A stretch of 32,791 bases of DNA from a virus: positions 1-32,791 of IMG/VR virus record IMGVR_UViG_3300035661_000220. The stretch is one strand, 5' to 3'. The position numbers were made by a program, and so were the translations under genes. Positions 4,227 through 31,071 of this stretch are shown here, piece by piece (the stretch's first letter is position 1; each line of letters begins with the position of its first letter). The notes beneath the pieces were generated by a model that did not search any database, was not told where the DNA came from, and saw only the letters and a program-made list of their open reading frames with translations.

Positions 4227-4874
4227 ATGGCACAGAATTTTATAATGCATTCCACGCATGTGGAGTTTGAAACGCCTACTGGTCTAATGAAAGCTTTATC
4301 TTTTGCAGACTTTAAATGCTTAATAGACAAAGCAGTCGAAGCTACTGAAGTAGAAGAGCCTATTTTGTTACCAAGCAATTGCTACTTAATCAGTAGGGCA
4401 GGAGATAATATGAAGCTGTCTTGCTATTACCCTGCTGCTATACGAGAGATTGAGTTTATTAGACGCGTAGACGGAAAGCCTAAAAAACACACGATACCCT
4501 TCCCTAACATGATTCTTAACTTCCTACTAACTAAGTCTGCAGACAAGTGGATTGTTAAAAGTGTCTATTACTACTGTACGGATAAGAAGTTATCTCAGTT
4601 ACCTCTTCGTGCTGTTACTACACAAGACGAAGGTGTTTGGAATAGCCCAATGCCTAACACGTTCGGGGATGCTCATATGTGCTACGGTAGAAACTCCATG
4701 CCTTCAGGATTTGTTGATAACTTCCGAGGCTTGGATTGGTATTTCTCGTTTCTATTCTCAACACCTTTTAATAGTGACCTGAGTATCAGCTGTGTAAAAG
4801 GTACACAGCCTGCAGATTGGATTAATGAGTTATCAGGTATGACAGAGTTTCCATACGCCAGACTAGGTAAGTAA
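4227..4874 (+). CDS. PRTRC system protein B-like (prokaryotic E2-like), 215 residues
   Basis: PRTRC protein B is described as a divergent prokaryotic E2-like fold. The matching signature here is a hydrophobic strand region, IPFPNMILNFLL (90-101), another strand, KWIVKSVYYYC (107-117), and then PMPNTFGDAHMCYG (141-154). The last resembles the family pattern 'P-x-x-N-x-x-x-D/G-x-x-C-x-G', in which the Cys (C152 here) is the candidate catalytic thiol. The protein lies between a small coupled gene and a JAMM peptidase, followed by an E1-like gene, the expected company for an E2. The family call is fairly good; actual thioester chemistry is inferred. Confidence 0.7.
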   Translation: MAQNFIMHSTHVEFETPTGLMKALSFADFKCLIDKAVEATEVEEPILLPSNCYLISRAGDNMKLSCYYPAAIREIEFIRRVDGKPKKHTIPFPNMILNFLLTKSADKWIVKSVYYYCTDKKLSQLPLRAVTTQDEGVWNSPMPNTFGDAHMCYGRNSMPSGFVDNFRGLDWYFSFLFSTPFNSDLSISCVKGTQPADWINELSGMTEFPYARLGK

Positions 4875-4935
4875 CATTCTTAGTCGTTGTTATTAGTTAT
4901 TATTCAATATTGTTAAATTAGAGGAGGATTCCTAA

Positions 4936-6216
4936 ATGAAAGAATTAGTTAAATTTATATCTTGTGTTGTTACCCCAGATGAGTTTGAAGAAGTCAAAGC
5001 TTCAGGAGCATGGTCAGAAATCTATATTAAAGATGGTCTTAACTTCTTCAAATACACGAAGCTTCGAGGCGGTCGTCATGTTACAGTAAAAGTACCAGCT
5101 ATTCCTGGATTGGTTAATAGTGCAGATTCTATTAAAGAAGACATTAACTTCCTTCCTGCTGGAAAGATTCCTGCAACTTTACTTCATGACATCATTGCTT
5201 TCTTTAAAGATGTTATGAGTACAACTAAGCAAGACGTTGAAGCTATGGCTCACATCCTGTGGAATGCTACTGATGGTTACCACATCGCAGTACCTAATCA
5301 AACAATCAGTAAGGCTGCGGTTAGTTATGGGAATGACCATATTAAAGAAGGCGATATAATCGTATTAGATATTCACAGCCATAACACTATGGGCGCATTC
5401 TTTTCTGGAACAGATAACGCAGATGATCGTAACGGTATTTACTACTCAGGAGTAGTCGGTAAATTAAACATGCTAACTCCTGAGTTAGTATGGCGCTTCA
5501 ATATTGGTGCAGAAAAACGCACTGCTTCAGTAACAGACATCTTTGAAGTAGAAGTTCTAGGCAAGTCTAAACCAGAATGGTTAAGCCAAGTCAAGATTCG
5601 TACTGCTCCTGCAGTTCCTCCGTTCAACCCTAATTTAAACTCTGGTGCTCACGATTGGGTAAATAAGTATAAAGGTCCTAATACTCCAGGTGTTCAAGGC
5701 GCTCCAAGATTACCTTCTACCAACATGCGTGATGGGTTTGATAACTTCATGGGTTTTGGTGCTGATGACCTAGGCCCGGCCTTTGCTTTCAGTAGTGGAA
5801 CCAATGATCTGTTCTCACAAGGAACTGACAACTCTTCCCTAGGTCGTATCTCTAAGAAAGAGCGTAAAGCTATTCAGCGGGGAGAAGGTGTATGGCGCAA
5901 TGGTAAGTTCGTGCCTACTACTAATGTGACCCCTATTACTAGCCGTAGTTATAATGAAACTTACGTAGCTGGGCCTTTGGATATGGACGGTCTTGAAGGT
6001 ATTGTCAGTATGGGGGATATGGGTTATACAGAGTCAGAAGATAGCGTCATGATGAATTCTCTTATGAGTGAGGACATTGCAGACGCAATAGGAACCATCG
6101 AAGATGTATTAGAAGATTTAGAAGGAGCAGATGTAGAAATACTTACGCTAATGCGTAAAATGTATGCCATGCTCTCTGGAGCTGGTCAAGCCAAAATAGC
6201 CACTGAAGGAATCTAA
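4936..6216 (+). CDS. JAB/JAMM metallopeptidase, PRTRC system protein A-like (426 residues)
   Basis: The JAMM signature is complete: H147-S-H149, seven residues, then S157-G-T-D160 (HxHx7SxxD), preceded by the strand DIIVLDI. JAMM enzymes use zinc to cut isopeptide or peptide bonds next to ubiquitin-like proteins. In these cassettes the enzyme may trim the modifier or remove conjugates. The N-terminal 140 residues are longer than a minimal JAB domain, as in PRTRC protein A. The C-terminal 200 residues are a Gly/Asn/Ser-rich low-complexity stretch plus an acidic helical end, an extension I do not recognise. The start has a strong AGAGGAGG site, and the stop is 2 nt from the E1-like start. Confidence 0.82.
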   Translation: MKELVKFISCVVTPDEFEEVKASGAWSEIYIKDGLNFFKYTKLRGGRHVTVKVPAIPGLVNSADSIKEDINFLPAGKIPATLLHDIIAFFKDVMSTTKQDVEAMAHILWNATDGYHIAVPNQTISKAAVSYGNDHIKEGDIIVLDIHSHNTMGAFFSGTDNADDRNGIYYSGVVGKLNMLTPELVWRFNIGAEKRTASVTDIFEVEVLGKSKPEWLSQVKIRTAPAVPPFNPNLNSGAHDWVNKYKGPNTPGVQGAPRLPSTNMRDGFDNFMGFGADDLGPAFAFSSGTNDLFSQGTDNSSLGRISKKERKAIQRGEGVWRNGKFVPTTNVTPITSRSYNETYVAGPLDMDGLEGIVSMGDMGYTESEDSVMMNSLMSEDIADAIGTIEDVLEDLEGADVEILTLMRKMYAMLSGAGQAKIATEGI

Positions 6217-6218
6217 AT

Positions 6219-7589
6219 ATGTTTGAATTTATCCCGAATACAGTTCCTAATACTGTAGTAGTAGTGGGTGCTGGTGGTACAGGGGGTAGGTTAATACCTC
6301 TGTTAGCTCAGTTCCTTAAAACAATGCCTTGGGTCATCGACCCTGCTATTATCATTGTTGATGACGATATTGTAGAGGAGAAGAATCTACTACGTCAGAA
6401 TTTTATTCGTGCTGACGTTGGTAGACCTAAAGCAGTAGTTATGGCTGAACGATATTCTCGTGCTTTTAATATTGAGATTATTCCGGTAGTCAAACGAGTG
6501 GAAGGTTATTATCGAGAGCATAAAGTACTCTTCGAAAACCGCACTACAGATAATGGTTCTCCTATTGTTGTTATGTGTGTTGACTCAGCTGATGCACGTA
6601 GAGCTATTTTAAAAGCTTTCTACTCAGTTAGTGGTAGTGGGCAACCGTTATTTATTGATGCAGGTAACGAGGATTCCTTTGGTCAAGTAATGGCGTTTCA
6701 TGCTCAGTACTTAACTAGGTCTGAGGGCTATAGTTTCCAGGATTACCTGAATCAATATGAAATTCCTCCTATGTTGCCGGTTCGTGTTAGAGTCCCTAGC
6801 CTATACATTGATTTGGATTTCTACGCAAACTTGGTTGATACACCTGGGGGTAGCTGTGCTGACTTAGACCAGACCTTGGCTATTAATGCGATGATGGCAA
6901 CCAGTATTATGGGTGTCATTCAGAACTACTACTATGTCAAGCCTTTTACCACAACTCGCATCAACTTGGTCGTAGCTCAAGGAGGTTCTTCTAACATGTC
7001 TGACCTTAGAGGAATGTATAATATCGCCAGTACAACACCAATCAGGGAGTTAGTAGAATCCAGTAATCTTCGTGGTACTAGCTTAGACTCTCTATTCAGT
7101 GAGGCTAGACGCAGCTATGATCTGTTAATGGAGGAGCAGCGAGAAGCAGCGAGAGTATTAAAGGAAGCAGAGGAAGCTCGGGCTAAAGCTGAGAAGATTC
7201 TAGCTGAGGCTATGGCTAAGGAGAGGGCTGAGGCTGAGGCTCTGGCTATGGCCGAGGATGCTACAGTAGTAGTAGAAACTCCGGAGATGCAAAGTATGCG
7301 TGTTCGCATCGAGGAGTATCATCAGGACCAGTTATCAGAAATGAATGCTATTGCTGTTAATGCTATTAATGCTAGTAGAGGAGAGAGCACAGCAGCCACT
7401 GTACTGACAGAGGAGATGGATGCAGAAATGTATAGAGATGCTATTGCTGCGGCTATGGGGACTGGTAGAACAACGACAGTTAACGTCACAGATGGTGAAA
7501 TAGATGGAATACCTAATTCTACTGTTATGCTGGATGTTAGTGAAGCCGGGCTTGAGGTGCTTATTTCAGCACTTTCAGCTCAGTCCTAG
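6219..7589 (+). CDS. E1-like ThiF-family adenylyltransferase, PRTRC type (456 residues)
   Basis: The protein has the ThiF/E1 nucleotide-binding loop VVVVGAGGTGG (13-23), the following acidic strand VDDDIVEEKNLLRQNF (47-62; the Arg and Asn there typically contact ATP) and CVDSADAR (120-127). E1-like enzymes adenylate the C-terminal glycine of a ubiquitin-like protein. C213 in PGGSCADLDQ is the candidate thioester Cys. After about residue 290 it has an Ala/Glu/Arg-rich predicted coiled coil (EAARVLKEAEEARAKAEKI region) and a further 130 residues not typical of minimal ThiF. It is the last gene of the cassette, followed by a strong terminator. Confidence 0.85.
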   Translation: MFEFIPNTVPNTVVVVGAGGTGGRLIPLLAQFLKTMPWVIDPAIIIVDDDIVEEKNLLRQNFIRADVGRPKAVVMAERYSRAFNIEIIPVVKRVEGYYREHKVLFENRTTDNGSPIVVMCVDSADARRAILKAFYSVSGSGQPLFIDAGNEDSFGQVMAFHAQYLTRSEGYSFQDYLNQYEIPPMLPVRVRVPSLYIDLDFYANLVDTPGGSCADLDQTLAINAMMATSIMGVIQNYYYVKPFTTTRINLVVAQGGSSNMSDLRGMYNIASTTPIRELVESSNLRGTSLDSLFSEARRSYDLLMEEQREAARVLKEAEEARAKAEKILAEAMAKERAEAEALAMAEDATVVVETPEMQSMRVRIEEYHQDQLSEMNAIAVNAINASRGESTAATVLTEEMDAEMYRDAIAAAMGTGRTTTVNVTDGEIDGIPNSTVMLDVSEAGLEVLISALSAQS

Positions 7590-13252: not shown

Positions 13253-13387
13253 ATGCTAACCATCATAATAGATTTCATTAAAGAACATATTGTCTCAGTA
13301 GTAGGTATTTGTGGAGTGGCTTCGGTTATAGCAACTGAAGCTGTTAAAAGTAAGTTTAGCTCTAGTAAGAAGCATCGTTCTTCATAG
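13253..13387 (+). CDS. Small single-span membrane protein (44 residues)
   Basis: The gene has a near-perfect ribosome binding site (AGGAGG, 13244-13249) with good spacing. The product has a hydrophobic span, roughly residues 11-28 (HIVSVVGICGVASVIATEA), followed by a Lys/Ser-rich cytoplasmic tail (SSSKKHRSS). It is alone in its transcription unit, on the plus strand between two minus-strand blocks. Its last 26 nt overlap the end of the convergent phosphoesterase gene. It might be a holin-like, superinfection or host-membrane effector, but nothing in the sequence decides this. Confidence 0.65.
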   Translation: MLTIIIDFIKEHIVSVVGICGVASVIATEAVKSKFSSSKKHRSS

Positions 13388-14630
13388 CAGCAGATAGAGC
13401 TGCAGAGGTACGCTGAAGATGGGCGGAGGTAGGATTGACTAAGTGTTCCACCAATTTAGCCTTCATCCCATTATTATAGCTAGCTCCTTGTTTCCAACCA
13501 TGTTCTATAGGCTCGCTAATCAGGTGACTTGTTATAGTGTCTGATATTTTTCTACCATACTTATTTTTATTAAAAGCTTTAGTAGAGGCTACATGCTTAG
13601 TTAAAGATAGTAATCCACTGCCAGGTTCTACTGCGACAGCTCCTGCACTACCAACTATGTGCGCTGTAGAAGAAGGCTTTGCTTGTACGAGATTGGAGGA
13701 CGGTATACCTTTAGAAAGATGAGAAGATATATTATTCAATAAAGGGTATTTTTTACTCTTCCAAATAGCCTCTAGTCTATTAGCATTTCTATGGTCTAGA
13801 AGGCCAGTCATATCTACCCCAGTGTGATGCTTCAATGCATGTACTGCATTTACAATTGTGGGGTTCTTAGACAGTCCATATTTATGTAGATCATTAAACC
13901 TACCTTGACTAAGCATTCTAAGACCAACTTTATCTCTAGAAGAAAGACTAGGGGCTATCTCTCTTAAGTGAGACCCAAGCTTACCGGCTACATTACCGGC
14001 GATAGCTAAGTCTGGTGATACTGCTCCAATAATAGCTTTCTTAATTTTGTTAACATGTCCTGCAGCCTCACCCCCCATATACCCGTTAGCAAAGTGGGTA
14101 GCAAGGTTATTAGCAACAGTCTTACTACGCAATCCTAGGTTTGTTATTGCATTCTGAGCCAAGTGCCCTATTGCCGCTCCTCCTAAGAAGGATGCTTCCT
14201 TATTTACACCCGCAATCTTCTCTATGTACTTATTCTCTTTCATGTCTTTCTTACTCTCTGTTAAGTTCTTAAATAACCACTGCTTCTCTCCATAGCTCGG
14301 TATATGCTTAAGCAAGTATTTCTCTCCGCTAGCTGTCTCAATAGTAAAGTAGTCCTTGCCCTTTGCAAGCTTACCTTTCTTAACCCACTTTAAGTAGGTA
14401 GTACCTCCTCCGTATTGTCCATTAGGAATAACTACTTTAGGACTAAGGGCGTAGTCTCTGTCATGTACAGGCTGTTCGTGAAAGATAATAGACTTGCCTG
14501 GTTCTGGTACGTTTTTGAAACTGGCCCAAGAGTAGGCCTTATCTCCTATAACTATTCGGTAGTCATAGTGAAGTCCTGCTTTGTCTGCGTGGTGTTCTTG
14601 TTGTGTAAAAAGTACTTCTGAGTCATTCAT
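13362..14630 (-). CDS. LigD-type 3'-phosphoesterase domain fused to a helical tagged region (422 residues)
   Basis: Residues 1-125 match the LigD phosphoesterase domain: EHHADKAGLHYDYRI (12-26; H14, H21, D23 and R25 fit the metal and phosphate site), SWASFKNVP, HDRDYALSP and a G-rich segment PNGQYGGGTTYLKW, ending QWLFKN. This domain removes 3'-phosphate and ribonucleoside ends at breaks. At residue 130 an internal Met begins MKENKYIEKIAGV, the recurrent KYLEKIA-type tag, followed by about 280 helical, Gly/Ala/His-rich residues like the internal proteins elsewhere here. It may be a fusion, or an internal start at 14243 may make a separate 293-residue protein. The gene overlaps the upstream gene by 8 nt. 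Confidence 0.85.
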   Translation of the reverse strand: MNDSEVLFTQQEHHADKAGLHYDYRIVIGDKAYSWASFKNVPEPGKSIIFHEQPVHDRDYALSPKVVIPNGQYGGGTTYLKWVKKGKLAKGKDYFTIETASGEKYLLKHIPSYGEKQWLFKNLTESKKDMKENKYIEKIAGVNKEASFLGGAAIGHLAQNAITNLGLRSKTVANNLATHFANGYMGGEAAGHVNKIKKAIIGAVSPDLAIAGNVAGKLGSHLREIAPSLSSRDKVGLRMLSQGRFNDLHKYGLSKNPTIVNAVHALKHHTGVDMTGLLDHRNANRLEAIWKSKKYPLLNNISSHLSKGIPSSNLVQAKPSSTAHIVGSAGAVAVEPGSGLLSLTKHVASTKAFNKNKYGRKISDTITSHLISEPIEHGWKQGASYNNGMKAKLVEHLVNPTSAHLQRTSAALSAAMKNDASY

Positions 14631-14910: not shown

Positions 14911-14961
14911 AAATCCTCCAAAGTAATCATACAGGTATTTTAATAGAGGTGATCTTCAGAC

Positions 14962-15230
14962 ATTTCTCAAAACTGTTTATCCATAATAAACAATAGCTTA
15001 CAAAAAAAAAGGCATAATTTTGTCCAGCCTGGACATGCCATGTCCCATCGAAAATACACTTTGTCCACCTGTTTTCTTAATCAAATCATAGACTTACCTC
15101 ACTTCTGGACAAAAAGACACGTGGACATTCAAAACAATATAACAAGTATTAAAAATAAGAATATCACTATAAAAAATAATATGGCCAAAAAGACGACCAG
15201 ACATTCAAAACATAAGGCACTTTGTGAGAA
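14962..15230. repeat. Left arm of a giant imperfect palindrome (about 270 bp per arm)
   Basis: This arm is the inverted copy of 15361-15630. The longest uninterrupted match is 71 nt (15099-15169 with 15423-15493); elsewhere the arms differ by scattered substitutions and short indels, so this is not a fresh duplication or a simple assembly fold-back. Within the arm, the hexamer TGTCCA or its complement TGGACA recurs at least five times, including the small palindrome TGTCCAGCCTGGACA (15020-15034), often next to CAAAA or TTTTG. No convincing gene is present. Confidence 0.88.
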
Positions 15231-15360
15231 ATATATTCTAGCCATAAAAATTTGTTTTGGGCTAAAAAGCCATCCCTTATATATATAGTTACTTAAAAAG
15301 TATATTTATATATATAAGAGGGGGTACTAGTAATAATTCATAATTTATATTGGTATTTCA

Positions 15361-15630
15361 TTCTCCACAAAGTAGCTTATATTTTGAATGTCTGGTTGTC
15401 TTTTGTCCTTGAAATATTTTTGTAGTGATATTCTTATTTTTAATACTTGTTATATTGTTTTGAATGTCCACGTGTCTTTTTGTCCAGAAGTGAAGTAAGT
15501 CTATGATTATATTAAAGAAACAGGTGGACAAAGTGTCTTTTCGATGGGACATGCTATGTCCAGGCTGGACAAAATTATGCCTTTTTCTTTGTAAGATGTT
15601 GTTTCTTATAGATAAATAGTTTTGAGAAAT
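15361..15630. repeat. Right arm of the giant imperfect palindrome
   Basis: This is the partner of 14962-15230. The 130-nt spacer between the arms is very A/T-rich and carries its own symmetry about the same centre (near 15296): CTTATATATATA (from 15276) faces TATATATATAAG. The whole 670-bp block could fold into one long cruciform or RNA hairpin. Possible roles are a replication or packaging site, a regulator-binding cluster, a MITE-like element, or part of the retron-like module downstream. Open frames in both arms encode nearly the same peptide only because the DNA is repeated. Confidence 0.88.
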
Positions 15631-15639
15631 ATCCGACAC

Positions 15640-15858
15640 TAGCAGTTATCCTGTAAACTTACCAAGTACTTCTATTACCGGATAACACATTGCTTTACCT
15701 ACTTGGCAATACTGTGCGACTTATATATCCGTAATGTGCTCAGGAGCCCTCAGATGAGCCTAGGATCGATTTATTACTACTGTGGGATATCCTTACCTAA
15801 CTTTAGTAAACAAAGCTCTTATAGACCCCTATACAATATCAACTAAGAGCTATTTTTT
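15640..15858 (+). ncRNA. Candidate structured non-coding RNA upstream of the reverse transcriptase module
   Basis: About 220 nt have no gene but show stems: CCAAGTA (15662-15668) with TACTTGG (15700-15706); short inverted matches around GCTCAGGAG and GATGAGC (15738-15760); and a terminal hairpin, AGCTCTTA (15814-15821) with TAAGAGCT (15844-15851), followed by six T residues. Retron ncRNAs (msr-msd) usually lie just upstream of the RT, so this is the best local candidate. I could not define the a1/a2 repeats or the priming guanosine, and two small ORFs lie between it and the RT. Confidence 0.35.
15814..15858 (+). terminator. Terminator at the end of the non-coding region
   Basis: An 8-bp stem, AGCTCTTA/TAAGAGCT, with an inner TATAG/CTATA helix, is followed by ATTTTTT. 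It ends whatever is transcribed from 15640 onward and directly abuts the GGTATAA box at 15859. Confidence 0.7.
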
Positions 15859-15868
15859 GGTATAAGGT
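15859..15868 (+). promoter_or_regulatory. Candidate phage promoter of the reverse transcriptase module, GGTATAAGGT
   Basis: It has the same GGTATAA core as four other plus-strand sites and is placed right after a terminator, 65 nt before the first small ORF of the RT operon. Confidence 0.5.
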
Positions 15869-15932
15869 ATTTAGATGGGGAATCTATTCTAATCCCGATC
15901 ACTATAACTATAAAAAAAGGTTTTACAAGCAA

Positions 15933-16049
15933 ATGACTATTCTACAAAAAATATTGGCATTCCTCTCAGTAGCACTAACAATAGCCGTGGAAGTGGCCCG
16001 TATCATTAAGGCGCACATGGATTCCAAAGAGGGGAACCAAGCAACTTAG
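15933..16049 (+). CDS. Small hydrophobic peptide at the start of the RT module (38 residues)
   Basis: The sequence has one hydrophobic span (ILAFLSVALTIAVEVA, about residues 7-22) followed by a charged tail with RIIKAHMDSKEG, typical of a one-pass membrane peptide. The ribosome binding site is weak (AAAAAAAGG, 10 nt or more upstream). It is followed 15 nt later by the next ORF, suggesting an operon with the RT. Some retrons have membrane effectors, but I cannot match this peptide to any. Its small size leaves room for chance. Confidence 0.45.
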   Translation: MTILQKILAFLSVALTIAVEVARIIKAHMDSKEGNQAT

Positions 16050-16064
16050 GAGATCTAGATTTAA

Positions 16065-16598
16065 ATGGTTAGACTTGACGAGGTTATAGGCTTAGTAACT
16101 AAGCCACCCAGAAGTTCAAAGCCTGTCCTTGAAACGAATAGAGATGCTTTTATTCTCGTTACTGGCTTGCTCTATGACTACTACCCTATTAAATTTAAAC
16201 CCATTTCTTTAGGTGATAAATTTATCAGGATAGAAAAATCACCACCCGTATTGGCAGATGGACTTATTATCTGTAATAAAAAAGTGTATACCATAACAAA
16301 ACAAGAACTATTAAGGAGAAAATTTAATGTCGCAAACGAGCGTCCAGTCAGTACCACAAAGCACACAAGTACAACCAACACCATTGGCACTGCCAGTCCT
16401 GGGCTCCAACCGGGACTTAGCGAATCACTTGGGGATGAAGTCGCCCAAGACGCTAACTTGGCTTGGGAAGAACAAGTCGGAGCATTACTCTACGCTGACA
16501 ATTCGCAAACGTGGGACTGGGAAAGTGAGATTATTACACAATCCCGATCAGCCGATGAGAACAGTACAATATCGAATACTGACGAAGATCCTCGATAA
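16065..16598 (+). CDS. Unknown ORF overlapping the reverse transcriptase by 272 nt (177 residues)
   Basis: The start has a good TTAGGAG site. The first 88 residues before the RT start look like a compact beta-rich domain (GDKFIRIEKSPPVLADGLIICNKKVYTI). The rest is encoded in a different frame over the RT N-terminus and is Ser/Thr/Asp-rich (ADENSTISNTDEDPR at the end), as expected for an overprinted tail. The RT ribosome binding site lies inside this gene. Either the long overlap is real or the gene has lost an earlier stop. It may be a retron accessory protein; no family is recognised. Confidence 0.5.
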   Translation: MVRLDEVIGLVTKPPRSSKPVLETNRDAFILVTGLLYDYYPIKFKPISLGDKFIRIEKSPPVLADGLIICNKKVYTITKQELLRRKFNVANERPVSTTKHTSTTNTIGTASPGLQPGLSESLGDEVAQDANLAWEEQVGALLYADNSQTWDWESEIITQSRSADENSTISNTDEDPR

Positions 16599-17409
16599 GA
16601 TTGAGATACCCAGTTATATATACGCGTTTGAAAAAGATAAATCTATTCCTGTTATGACGCAAGAGCACATTAACAAACGAGTGGTTGTAAGTATTGACAT
16701 TAAAGACTTCTTCCATAGTATTAAGCAGAGTTCTTTATTTGAAATGTTTACAGGCATGGGTATGGGGGTCACTCCAGCAAGAACGTTATCAGAGTTATGC
16801 ACGTATAAGGCATATGTACCACAAGGGGCTTTGACTAGCCCAAAGATAAGTAATATCATTGCTGCGAAAACATTCGGACCTTTGCTCCGAGAATATTGTG
16901 ATTCTAAAAATTACACATTAACCATCTACGCAGATGACATTACTTTATCCATGAATAGGCATACTGATTCTTTAGAGCAGATTATTAAAGATATTTCAGA
17001 ATTTGTAACACGGTTTGGATTCAGAATAAACAAGAAGAAGACGAAGGTAATGGGTTATTATCAGCGTCAATGGGTTTGTGGTGTTGTAGTAAATCAGAAA
17101 ACTAATATGCTGAAAAAAGACCGGCTACTTCTGAGAGCTATAGTACATAACATTACGAGGAATGGGGTAGAGGAAGAATCCTTGAAAGCAGGGGCTCCTA
17201 ACCCATCTACTTTCTTAAGTTCTGTCAAGGGTAGAATAGGCTGGCTTAAACAGTTAAATCAACCCTTAGGTGATAAGTTGTTGTTGAAGTTGAATACCTA
17301 CCTAAAAACGTTGGGTAGTGAAATTGGGGCTGAGTCAGAAGTTGTAATGGAAGAAGACGTGCATGACCTCATGAGGAAGAACATGGGTTCAGAAGCATCT
17401 ACGACATAA
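16327..17409 (+). CDS. Retron-type reverse transcriptase (360 residues)
   Basis: RT motifs are in order: TIRKRGTGKVR (58-68, RT1), VVSIDIKDFFHSI (120-132; first catalytic Asp D124), VPQGALTSPKISN (164-176), TIYADDITLS (199-208; catalytic YADD), GFRINKKKTKVM (231-242) and WVCGVVVN (249-256), the last matching the VTGLVV-type thumb signature of retron RTs (Ec86 has VTGLVIS). There is no maturase, protease or endonuclease domain, and a DGR-type GxxxSQ is absent. An N-terminal 25-residue Gln/Ser/Pro-rich tail precedes the fold. The start has AAGGAGA 8 nt upstream. In bacteria such RTs make msDNA and act in anti-phage systems; in a phage, superinfection exclusion is possible. Confidence 0.9.
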   Translation: MSQTSVQSVPQSTQVQPTPLALPVLGSNRDLANHLGMKSPKTLTWLGKNKSEHYSTLTIRKRGTGKVRLLHNPDQPMRTVQYRILTKILDKIEIPSYIYAFEKDKSIPVMTQEHINKRVVVSIDIKDFFHSIKQSSLFEMFTGMGMGVTPARTLSELCTYKAYVPQGALTSPKISNIIAAKTFGPLLREYCDSKNYTLTIYADDITLSMNRHTDSLEQIIKDISEFVTRFGFRINKKKTKVMGYYQRQWVCGVVVNQKTNMLKKDRLLLRAIVHNITRNGVEEESLKAGAPNPSTFLSSVKGRIGWLKQLNQPLGDKLLLKLNTYLKTLGSEIGAESEVVMEEDVHDLMRKNMGSEASTT

Positions 17410-27876: not shown

Positions 27877-27908
27877 AGCCTGGGGGTTTAAGATTTACTT
27901 GAAAAAGA

Positions 27909-27918
27909 GGTATAATAA
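27909..27918 (+). promoter_or_regulatory. Candidate phage promoter of the homing endonuclease pair, GGTATAATAA
   Basis: GGTATAA core 50 nt upstream of the chosen ATG (27959). It lies within the extended open frame that starts at the TTG of 27899, arguing that translation really begins downstream at 27959. Confidence 0.5.
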
Positions 27919-27958
27919 TAGTACGAAGTTATCTTTATATCTTAGAATAGGAATTAAT

Positions 27959-29614
27959 ATGGCTTATCCGAAGCTAACTGAAGAAGTATGCTTAAGACGG
28001 TTAATTGAGAAATACCCAACCTTTGATTTCTCTCAATTCAAGTACATAAATAGTAAAACTAAGAGTACCGTAATTTGTGATAAAGGGCATACTTTTTTAC
28101 AACACTTCAGCAATCTAGATCGAGGTATATCTTGTAATTTATGTGGAATAGAGAGGAGATCTACTAGTAAAAAAGACACTAGGGAGTCCTTTATAACTAA
28201 AGCAATGTCGGTGCATGGTTTACTCTACAACTATGAAAAAGTCGTATACACAGGAAATAGGGTCAAGATTGAAATAATATGTAAAACTCATGGTAGTTTT
28301 TGGCAAACGCCTAACGCACACCTACAAGGCTGTGGTTGTCCAGAGTGCAGTGGAAATGTACGTAAGGCTCCGGAGATAAGCTTTAAAGAAGACTCTACGA
28401 AAGTACACGGGGTTAGGTATAACTATTCCAGGTTTACATACAAGGGAAACAAGGTTAAAGGGGAGTTAATATGTTCAGAGCATGGACCTTTCTGGATCAG
28501 GCCGAACTCACATCTACTAGGCATGGGTTGTCCTAGATGCGGTAGTATTAGATCCGCAAACTTGAGGAGACGAACTTTAGAATCATTTGTAGCCGAGAGT
28601 GATGCCATACACCTAGGTAGGTATATTTATACTAAAGTTATCTACGTAAGCAGTCATGTTAAATGTGAGATAATTTGTAAGGATCATGGATCTTTCTGGC
28701 AAACACCTGCTAGTCACTTAGAAGGTGTAGGATGCCCTTCCTGTGCTAACTTAGTGTCTACTCCTGAAATAGAAATAGGAGATTTTATTAAAAGTCTTGG
28801 GTTTGATATTGTTACAAATTCTAGAACCCTGCTTGGTAATGGTAAAGAGTTGGATATATTCATTCCTGGGAAGAACTTGGCAATAGAGTTTAATGGATTG
28901 TGGTGGCATGGAGAAATACACAAACCTAAACGTTATCACTTAGACAAATTAGAGGCTGCAACTAAAGCAGGGATAAGGCTAATATCTATTTTTGAAGATG
29001 AGTGGATATCTAAGAAAGAAATAGTTAAAACTAGACTATCCCATATACTAGGAGTTTCTTCTAAGACCTTATACGCTAGGAAACTAGATGTTAACTATCT
29101 GCGTAGCCAAGAGGCAAGTCCTTTCTTTCAGACTACACATATTCAGGGCCCAACACAATCATCTATTTATATAGGATTATATGATAATGCCGAGTTAGTA
29201 GCATGTATGTCTTTTGGTAAATCCAGGTTTGAGAAAAGAGAAGGATTGGTTGAGTTATTAAGGTTCTCCTCCATAGGATCAGTAGTAGGTGGGTTTAGTA
29301 GACTGTTAAAAAGGTTCTTACTGGATAACCCTAATATAGTTTCAGTAGTTAGTTACTCTGACAAGAGATGGTCTCTAGGGGAGGTATACAGTAAAAATGG
29401 ATTTAGTAAAGTAGGCAGTAGTGAACCAGGATATTTCTGGTGTAAGAAACATACTAGGTATGGTAGACAGAGTTTTCAAAAGCATAAGCTTCCTGGGGCT
29501 CTAGAAGTGTTTGACCCTGCTAAGACTGAAGTGGAGAATTGCAAGGCTAATGGGTATTACCGCATATTTGATTGCGGCATGGATAAATGGGAATTAGTAT
29601 GGAAACGAAAATAG
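27959..29614 (+). CDS. EDxHD-type homing endonuclease with four zinc-knuckle repeats (551 residues)
   Basis: I use the ATG at 27959 (MAYPKLTEEV, AGGA site 8 nt upstream) because the frame's earlier TTG overlaps the promoter box. The first 275 residues hold four copies of a module of about 65 residues: 'YxYxxVxYxxxxxKVxIICxxHGxFxQxPxxHLxGxGCPxC' (for example CKTHGSFWQTPNAHL, CSEHGPFWIRPNSHL, CKDHGSFWQTPASHL). The nuclease core (GNGKELDIFIPGK, IEFNGLWWHGE, YHLDKLEAA, IFEDEW) fits the Vsr-like EDxHD endonucleases such as I-Bth0305I. The C-terminal 200 residues (MSFGKSRFEK through KANGYYRIFDCGMDKW) are a module commonly attached in phages. It is followed by a paralogue overlapping by 16 nt. Confidence 0.87.
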   Translation: MAYPKLTEEVCLRRLIEKYPTFDFSQFKYINSKTKSTVICDKGHTFLQHFSNLDRGISCNLCGIERRSTSKKDTRESFITKAMSVHGLLYNYEKVVYTGNRVKIEIICKTHGSFWQTPNAHLQGCGCPECSGNVRKAPEISFKEDSTKVHGVRYNYSRFTYKGNKVKGELICSEHGPFWIRPNSHLLGMGCPRCGSIRSANLRRRTLESFVAESDAIHLGRYIYTKVIYVSSHVKCEIICKDHGSFWQTPASHLEGVGCPSCANLVSTPEIEIGDFIKSLGFDIVTNSRTLLGNGKELDIFIPGKNLAIEFNGLWWHGEIHKPKRYHLDKLEAATKAGIRLISIFEDEWISKKEIVKTRLSHILGVSSKTLYARKLDVNYLRSQEASPFFQTTHIQGPTQSSIYIGLYDNAELVACMSFGKSRFEKREGLVELLRFSSIGSVVGGFSRLLKRFLLDNPNIVSVVSYSDKRWSLGEVYSKNGFSKVGSSEPGYFWCKKHTRYGRQSFQKHKLPGALEVFDPAKTEVENCKANGYYRIFDCGMDKWELVWKRK

Positions 29615-31071
29615 TAAGATCTACAAAAAAGTTAACGCAAGAAGAGGCTATTGGTATTCTTACTAATCTATACCCAGAGTGTGATTTTTCTAGGTTTGTC
29701 TACATCAATAGTGCGACTAAGGGCACCGTCACCTGCGGTAACAATCACACTTTTCAGCAAAGTTATAAAAAAATGAGACGGGGTATTCTTTGTGCCAAAT
29801 GTGGAGGAGTAGCCAAGAAAACTACAAAGGAGGCTGTTGCGGAGTTAGAAAATAAGTATGGAACTTACTGCGACTATTCAGAAGTCGTGTACACTGGGGC
29901 TAATAAAAAGATAACCGTAATATGTCCAGTCCATGGTAGGTTCACAATAGACTTCGCAGCTTATTTATATCAGTCTACCTATCCTTGCCCTAAATGTGGC
30001 ATAGCTAGCAGGGCATCTAAACAGTGGGATACAAAAGAGGATTTCCTAAGTAAAGCTTCTTCCCTGTATGGAGACACAATAGACTTCTCTAAGTTCGTGT
30101 ATAAAGGTAGTAAGATTAAAGGAGAGGCGGTTTGTAAAAAACATGGCAGTTATTGGCAAATACCCAACGCCATTATTTCTGGTAGGAATGGATGCCCCAA
30201 ATGTAGTTATAAAGTGTCAAGGCCTGAAACAGATCTTACTGAGTTTATAAATAACCTAGGTTTACCAGTGCTATCCAATAGTAGAGGCTTACTAGATAAT
30301 GGAAAAGAAATTGATATATTCATACCAGGCTTAAAAGTAGGAATAGAATTTAATGGGCTTCGATGGCACGGAGAAGATTTCCGGGATAAAGGGTATCATT
30401 TAGATAAACTTAATGCGGCTAATAGGGCAGGGATTAGACTTATACAGATATTTAGTGATGAGTGGGACACTAAAAAAGAAATAGTGCTATCTCGTTTAAC
30501 TCATATTTTAAATAAAGGAACCGATGTAAGGTACGCACGTAAGCTGGAGTGTAAAGTAGTTCTACCTATGGAAGCCTACTCTTTCTATGAATCCACTCAC
30601 ATTCAAGGTGGAGTACGATCTCAAGACTACGCAGTAGGGTTGTATGAGGGAGATACTTTAGTAGCCTGCATGTCTTTTGGGGAATCTAGATTCTCTAAAG
30701 AGTTAGGGCAGAAAGAGTTACTTAGATTTTCCTCGATAGGAGCCGTGGTAGGCGGATTTAGTAGATTACTGAAAGCCTATCTGAAGGCATTTCCGGGAAT
30801 TCATTCTATAGTAAGCTATTCGGATAAGCGTTGGTCGGTTGGAGATGTGTATAGAAAGAATAACTTCATTCACTCCGGGACTAGTTCCCCGGGATATTAT
30901 TGGTGTAAAAATAATAAACGATATACTCGACATATGTTCCAGAAGCATAAGTTATATAAGATACTGGAGGTATTTGATCCCTCTTTAACAGAAGTAGAGA
31001 ACTGCAAGGCTAATGGGTACTACCGAGTATTTGATTGTGGTATGGATAAATGGAAACTAACCTGTAAGTAG
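29599..31071 (+). CDS. EDxHD-type homing endonuclease, second tandem copy, three repeats (490 residues)
   Basis: This is a paralogue of the preceding gene along its whole length: zinc-knuckle repeats (CGNNHTF, CPVHGRFTIDF, CKKHGSYWQIPN), nuclease core (NGKEIDIFIPGL, IEFNGLRWHGE, YHLDKLNAAN, IFSDEW) and C-terminal module (MSFGESRFSK to GYYRVFDCGMDKW). It has one repeat fewer. A start at 29587 (four residues longer) is also possible; both overlap the upstream stop, so the pair is coupled. It ends at a terminator right beside the major capsid gene, which suggests insertion as intergenic mobile genes. All catalytic positions appear kept, so neither copy looks broken. Confidence 0.87.
   Translation: METKIVRSTKKLTQEEAIGILTNLYPECDFSRFVYINSATKGTVTCGNNHTFQQSYKKMRRGILCAKCGGVAKKTTKEAVAELENKYGTYCDYSEVVYTGANKKITVICPVHGRFTIDFAAYLYQSTYPCPKCGIASRASKQWDTKEDFLSKASSLYGDTIDFSKFVYKGSKIKGEAVCKKHGSYWQIPNAIISGRNGCPKCSYKVSRPETDLTEFINNLGLPVLSNSRGLLDNGKEIDIFIPGLKVGIEFNGLRWHGEDFRDKGYHLDKLNAANRAGIRLIQIFSDEWDTKKEIVLSRLTHILNKGTDVRYARKLECKVVLPMEAYSFYESTHIQGGVRSQDYAVGLYEGDTLVACMSFGESRFSKELGQKELLRFSSIGAVVGGFSRLLKAYLKAFPGIHSIVSYSDKRWSVGDVYRKNNFIHSGTSSPGYYWCKNNKRYTRHMFQKHKLYKILEVFDPSLTEVENCKANGYYRVFDCGMDKWKLTCK

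Follow-up and report, generated by a model that had tools for sequence, protein, structure and literature searches.

A multi-copy palindromic element with an A/T-rich core in a group of large tailed phages, a candidate replication origin

The palindrome and its neighbours in the window

The DNA analysed here (the window) spans an entire IMG/VR virus record (32,791 bp), in which an imperfect palindrome of 681 bp is followed by an operon encoding a retron-type reverse transcriptase (RT). The features of the locus are listed in Table 1.

Table 1. Features of the palindrome and of the adjoining RT operon (window coordinates)
Feature	Position	Strand	Basis or remark
Entire imperfect palindrome (a single copy of the multi-copy element)	14956..15636	.	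Self reverse-complement alignment; fold z -37.6
Left arm	14956..15275	.	TGTCCA/TGGACA x5: 15021+, 15030-, 15062+, 15106-, 15122-
71 nt exact stretch, inverted in the other arm	15099..15169	.	Longest exact arm match
A/T-rich core, candidate unwinding element	15276..15336	.	Holds 12-bp inverted repeat 15276-15287/15307-15318
Right arm	15319..15636	.	Mirrored sites x5: 15465+, 15481+, 15525-, 15557+, 15566-
Inverted partner of 15099-15169	15423..15493	.	Mirror about 15296
TTTGGTATAAG, extended -10-like promoter of the RT operon, not part of the element	15856..15866	+	Same word before operons in relatives
Gene for 38-aa hydrophobic/amphipathic peptide, neighbour	15933..16049	+	Read from sequence; similar short ORFs in relatives
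P0001, conserved protein before and overlapping RT, neighbour	16065..16598	+	30-36% identical in RT-bearing relatives
Retron-type RT, neighbour, not required for the element	16327..17409	+	PADLOC RT_III-A/XIII, E~1e-66

Alignment of the palindrome with its own reverse complement by blastn gave 83.3% identity over 689 columns (E <= 1.7e-179), and the complementarity of the outer arms (14956-15175 and 15417-15636) was 92%. The single-strand fold was calculated at -395 kcal/mol, compared with -130 for dinucleotide shuffles, and the minus strand was equally extreme (z = -37.3). A previous, sequence-only reading of this DNA had reported an imperfect palindrome with an A/T-rich centre and 71 nt identical in both arms, all of which was borne out; its arm size of about 270 bp was an underestimate, the arms being nearer 320-340 bp. 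The 60-bp segment at 15277, at the centre of the palindrome, was the least stable in the whole contig. The element contains 10 occurrences of TGTCCA/TGGACA, where the frequency in the contig itself predicts 0.41, and each of the five left-arm sites pairs with a right-arm site about the centre at 15296. The suggestion that these repeats resemble binding sites was supported by the lineage-specific arrays of relatives described below, binding itself being inferred.

Two ORFs inside the palindrome (15040-15288 and 15358-15639) are mirror images of one another, 78% identical, and no homologue of either was found in the compared genomes; no gene therefore explains the palindrome, as had been proposed. 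The same palindrome was recovered in independent assemblies (L003/L008, L006/L009 and L021/L022) and the same kind of element is carried by sequenced isolates, which excludes both chance and an assembly fold-back artefact.

The RT operon (15856-17409) consists of the promoter, the peptide of ~38 aa, P0001 and RT. The RT has the motif VCG, where retrons usually have VTG. P0001 and RT were conserved across the RT-bearing relatives, with the RT broken in G022. Elsewhere in the window, Prok-E2_D, JAB and ThiF genes lie consecutively at 4227-7589 and resemble a ubiquitin-like conjugation or PRTRC cassette; relatives of the ThiF protein are present in the compared genomes. Two related tandem genes at 27899-31071 are similar to HNH/homing endonuclease families, the first with weak Vsr and Mom-like matches. 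The region 13362-14630 encodes a protein with a sub-threshold match to LigD_N (3'-phosphoesterase), found at varied positions in relatives and not consistently adjoining the element. Promoters of the type TTGGTATAAG were nearly all in the same direction in two relatives (0 versus 31 in G001 and 1 versus 28 in G004).

Copies of the element in related phages

The capsid and terminase proteins of the window matched Salmonella phage Arash and Vibrio phages D69, D181 and D148, and further related contigs were gathered with a conserved structural protein; a search with the LigD-like protein as a marker for relatives gave nothing. A search for the arm in related phages had previously been suggested; direct DNA similarity of the element gave no match in phage records, because between genomes only the layout persists, namely arms of a short lineage-specific repeat around an A/T core. 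No earlier description of these elements was found in open-access papers, and the annotations of Arash and D69 do not mention them.

The element is a multi-copy feature of a phage group with genomes of ~165-190 kb, with three or five copies per genome and fewer in incomplete contigs. Whole-contig palindrome scans identified three copies each in G001, G004 and G013, tens of kilobases apart and with one per genome near the RT. Three copies were also present in G015, G023 and Vibrio phage D69, and five in Salmonella phage Arash, G017, G019, G020, G021 and G022, while G006, a 145-kb fragment, had two. In G016 one copy was internal and each of the two contig ends (L118 1-574 and the end of L127) lay inside a further copy, so the assembly breaks at the element. 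Weaker palindromes in G008 (97.5, 79.4 and 2.3 kb), which have neither the repeats nor the A/T core, were left uncounted. Palindromic character was strong in the RT-bearing clade, clear in D69 and weak in G019, G020 and G021, whose copies were identified by their dispersed repetition and by a core of the same type.

The repeat was TGTCCA in the window, G001, G004 and G011, TGTCTA in G015, TTGTCA in G013, CCGCACTT in G010, TGTAAC in Arash, D69 and G017 and TGTAGCAA in G023, with others in further genomes. Palindromes upstream of the RT in viral-contig relatives carried TGTCCA in several cases, CCGCACTT in L018 and TTTGTCA in L021. Relative to genome background, these 6-8-mer arrays were enriched by a factor of roughly 15 to 75. 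The cores coincided exactly with the least stable 60-bp loci in nine genomes, occupying ranks 1-3 in G001, G004, G013 and G015 and ranks 1-5 in G017 and G019-G022. The Arash cores tied for the top five least-stable loci, and the window, G008 and G010 each had a core at rank 1. The ranks were less clean in D69 (4-6), G011 (2), G023 (1, 2 and 4) and G016 (5-7).

The five Arash copies lie at about 26.7, 66.5, 100.2, 138.6 and 173.4 kb, and the gaps between them were near-equal, at 39.7, 33.8, 38.3, 34.8 and 34.2 kb (P 2e-5 for random placement). Similar evenness was calculated for G019-G021 (P 2-8e-5), with G022 less even, and the D69 gaps, for copies at about 67.5, 125.2 and 185.4 kb, were 57.7, 60.2 and 68.8 kb (P 0.005). 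G015 was moderately even, and G001, G004 and G023 only weakly so (P 0.05-0.16). Five loci were common to Arash, G017 and G019-G021; as this clade shares the same loci, the evenness of the five-copy genomes represents one arrangement and not five independent events. Diverged genomes had some of the element positions in common. A shift test based on shared neighbours, applied to five genomes, gave a marginal result (P 0.05).

Copies within one genome of the five-copy clade were 90% identical, whereas copies from different genomes were 76% identical at the same position and 77% at different positions. This difference between and within genomes, irrespective of position, indicates concerted evolution. 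The three G013 copies were 98-99% identical to each other. The proposal that the palindrome is old, maintained and useful agrees with these data, since relatives carry several elements at partly conserved positions, and the copies are alike within a genome.

Candidate functions of the element

The location of a retron-type RT 0.7 kb downstream of the palindrome led to the first hypothesis, that the palindrome is a giant msd, the ncRNA of the adjacent RT. The very strong hairpin is consistent with this, as is the occurrence of a comparable palindrome before the RT in most relatives, and the general likeness to a retron msr-msd is a long hairpin upstream of a retron-type RT. However, an RT profile search of 16 genomes or contigs gave no match in seven, with the RT of G022 broken, and the element was present in several copies in genomes without an RT (D69, Arash, G017, G019, G020, G021 and G023). 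The RT-side copy kept its place in Arash, G017 and G019-G022, and in Arash a P0001-like remnant lies ~430 bp from the fifth copy. Conversely, in G008, G015 and G016, which have the RT, a distance of ~12 kb or more separates it from the nearest copy. The element is thus independent of the RT. In addition, a promoter-like site separates the element from the RT operon, no msr or a1/a2 was recognised for the element, and no Rfam family was recognised in either the operon or the element. The giant msd was rejected because genomes without an RT carry the element, and we consider it scarcely credible; of the retron-like module described earlier beside the palindrome, the neighbour is real and a tie between the two is not.

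A transposable element of the MITE kind, bearing long inverted repeats, would offer an account of several near-identical copies in one genome, such as those of G013, and its ends and target duplications were not systematically compared. Mobile copies at variable positions were not observed, however: positions were partly common to diverged genomes, the copies were evenly spaced, and three or five were present in nearly all complete genomes with a repeat proper to each lineage. This explanation is disfavoured and was judged the least probable of all; a fold-back artefact and a simple MITE had been named beforehand as observations that would overturn the sequence-only reading, and neither fits. 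Control of transcription of nearby operons, through an upstream activating array or a bidirectional promoter/terminator, also appears improbable. In G001 each of the three palindromes has an edge no more than 120 bp from a TTGGTATAAG promoter, but such a promoter was near only one of three in G004, one of three in G013 and none of three in G015, and the gene neighbours vary from copy to copy. Moreover, two of the five Arash copies are between convergent annotated genes, a placement at which no promoter is needed. The main rival is a genome-organising or partition-type site, at which a phage protein on spaced arrays would condense, anchor or segregate the chromosome with no start of replication. 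Such a site is equally compatible with the repeat arrays, the several copies and the even spacing, and the skew test described below was without sign of origins. Alone, such a site leaves the least-stable centre and the mirror-image layout unexplained, and no partition protein was recognised, although none was specifically sought; we regard it as possible, if unlikely.

Arrays around the easiest-melting DNA, in several homogenised and spaced copies, are best fitted by a set of replication origins. We therefore favour, with a probability of roughly 0.6, the reading that a large tailed phage has several homologous replication origins, of which the palindrome is one, origin activity being inferred. 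Two traits of an origin were present, an A/T-rich unwinding element (cores that are the least stable 60-bp loci in most genomes) and an array of putative initiator sites, for which there are no binding data. A strand-composition shift, a supporting though not universal trait of bidirectional origins, was not seen. The GC-skew check for an origin that had been recommended gave no support when controlled for coding strand; the difference in third-position GC skew on leaving the elements was -0.015 against a null sd of 0.0066, a slight shift contrary to the sign usually seen and without a leading-strand signal, and plain cumulative GC skew followed gene direction. The replication functions recognised among the conserved genes were a PolA-family polymerase, a Toprim/DnaG-type primase and SF2 helicases, with no initiator identified. 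Further points against the reading are the imperfect core ranks of D69, G011, G023 and G016, the faint palindromic layout of G019-G021, the single arrangement behind the five-copy evenness, the weak evenness of G001, G004 and G023 and the marginal shift test. The open literature searched contained no replication data for these phages.

If the elements are origins, a sequence-specific initiator, phage-encoded or recruited and as yet unidentified, would bind the short repeats (TGTCCA in the window) in both inverted arms. The arms would place this initiator symmetrically on both sides of the A/T core, the site in the genome predicted to melt most easily, and it is proposed that helicase and primase could then be loaded in both directions. 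With three or five roughly evenly spaced sites, the 165-190 kb genome may be copied in parallel segments. Recombination is presumed to keep the copies within a genome alike, and homogenisation by this route could allow the repeat to drift as a set, specific to each lineage. The full proposition, that each genome is replicated from a set of three or five homologous inverted-array origins, kept homogenised and spaced roughly evenly, and that their initiator site changes by lineage as a set, we put at about an even chance.

Known origins and significance

By analogy, the closest working parallel to the phage elements is herpes simplex virus (HSV), in which three origins are redundant and consist of inverted initiator boxes flanking an AT-rich spacer (PMC12543377). 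The redundancy of oriL/oriS and their inverted boxes are the points of resemblance. The phage element differs in belonging to a bacterial virus, in arms that reach about 330 bp and hold many more sites, and in a lineage-specific repeat with an unidentified initiator; no homology has been shown. Phage T4 has a genome of similar size (169 kb) and starts replication at five or more origins (oriA, C, E, F and G), with A+T unwinding elements at oriF and oriG and repeats at oriE (PMC3016281). The T4 origins are without a common motif (PMC3016281), whereas the copies in this phage group are homologous and homogenised, with inverted arms. Short repeated sites, bound by an initiator and needed for replication, are likewise a feature of the iteron origins found in plasmids and in the PLE satellite (RepA_N) (PMC7145576). 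Such origins occur once per replicon, in contrast to the several copies and mirrored arrays of the phage group, in which no RepA was found.

Phages with multiple origins are already known from T4, but without a shared motif among the origins. If the reading as origins is correct, a recognisable, homogenised and spaced origin-like element would make origin usage predictable from sequence, and it would become testable whether the spacing is selected and how initiator and sites change together. Such tests are practical because Arash and the Vibrio phage D69 group are isolates. If the elements are not origins, they would represent some different type of spaced site, present in multiple copies on phage chromosomes, which would be at least as surprising.
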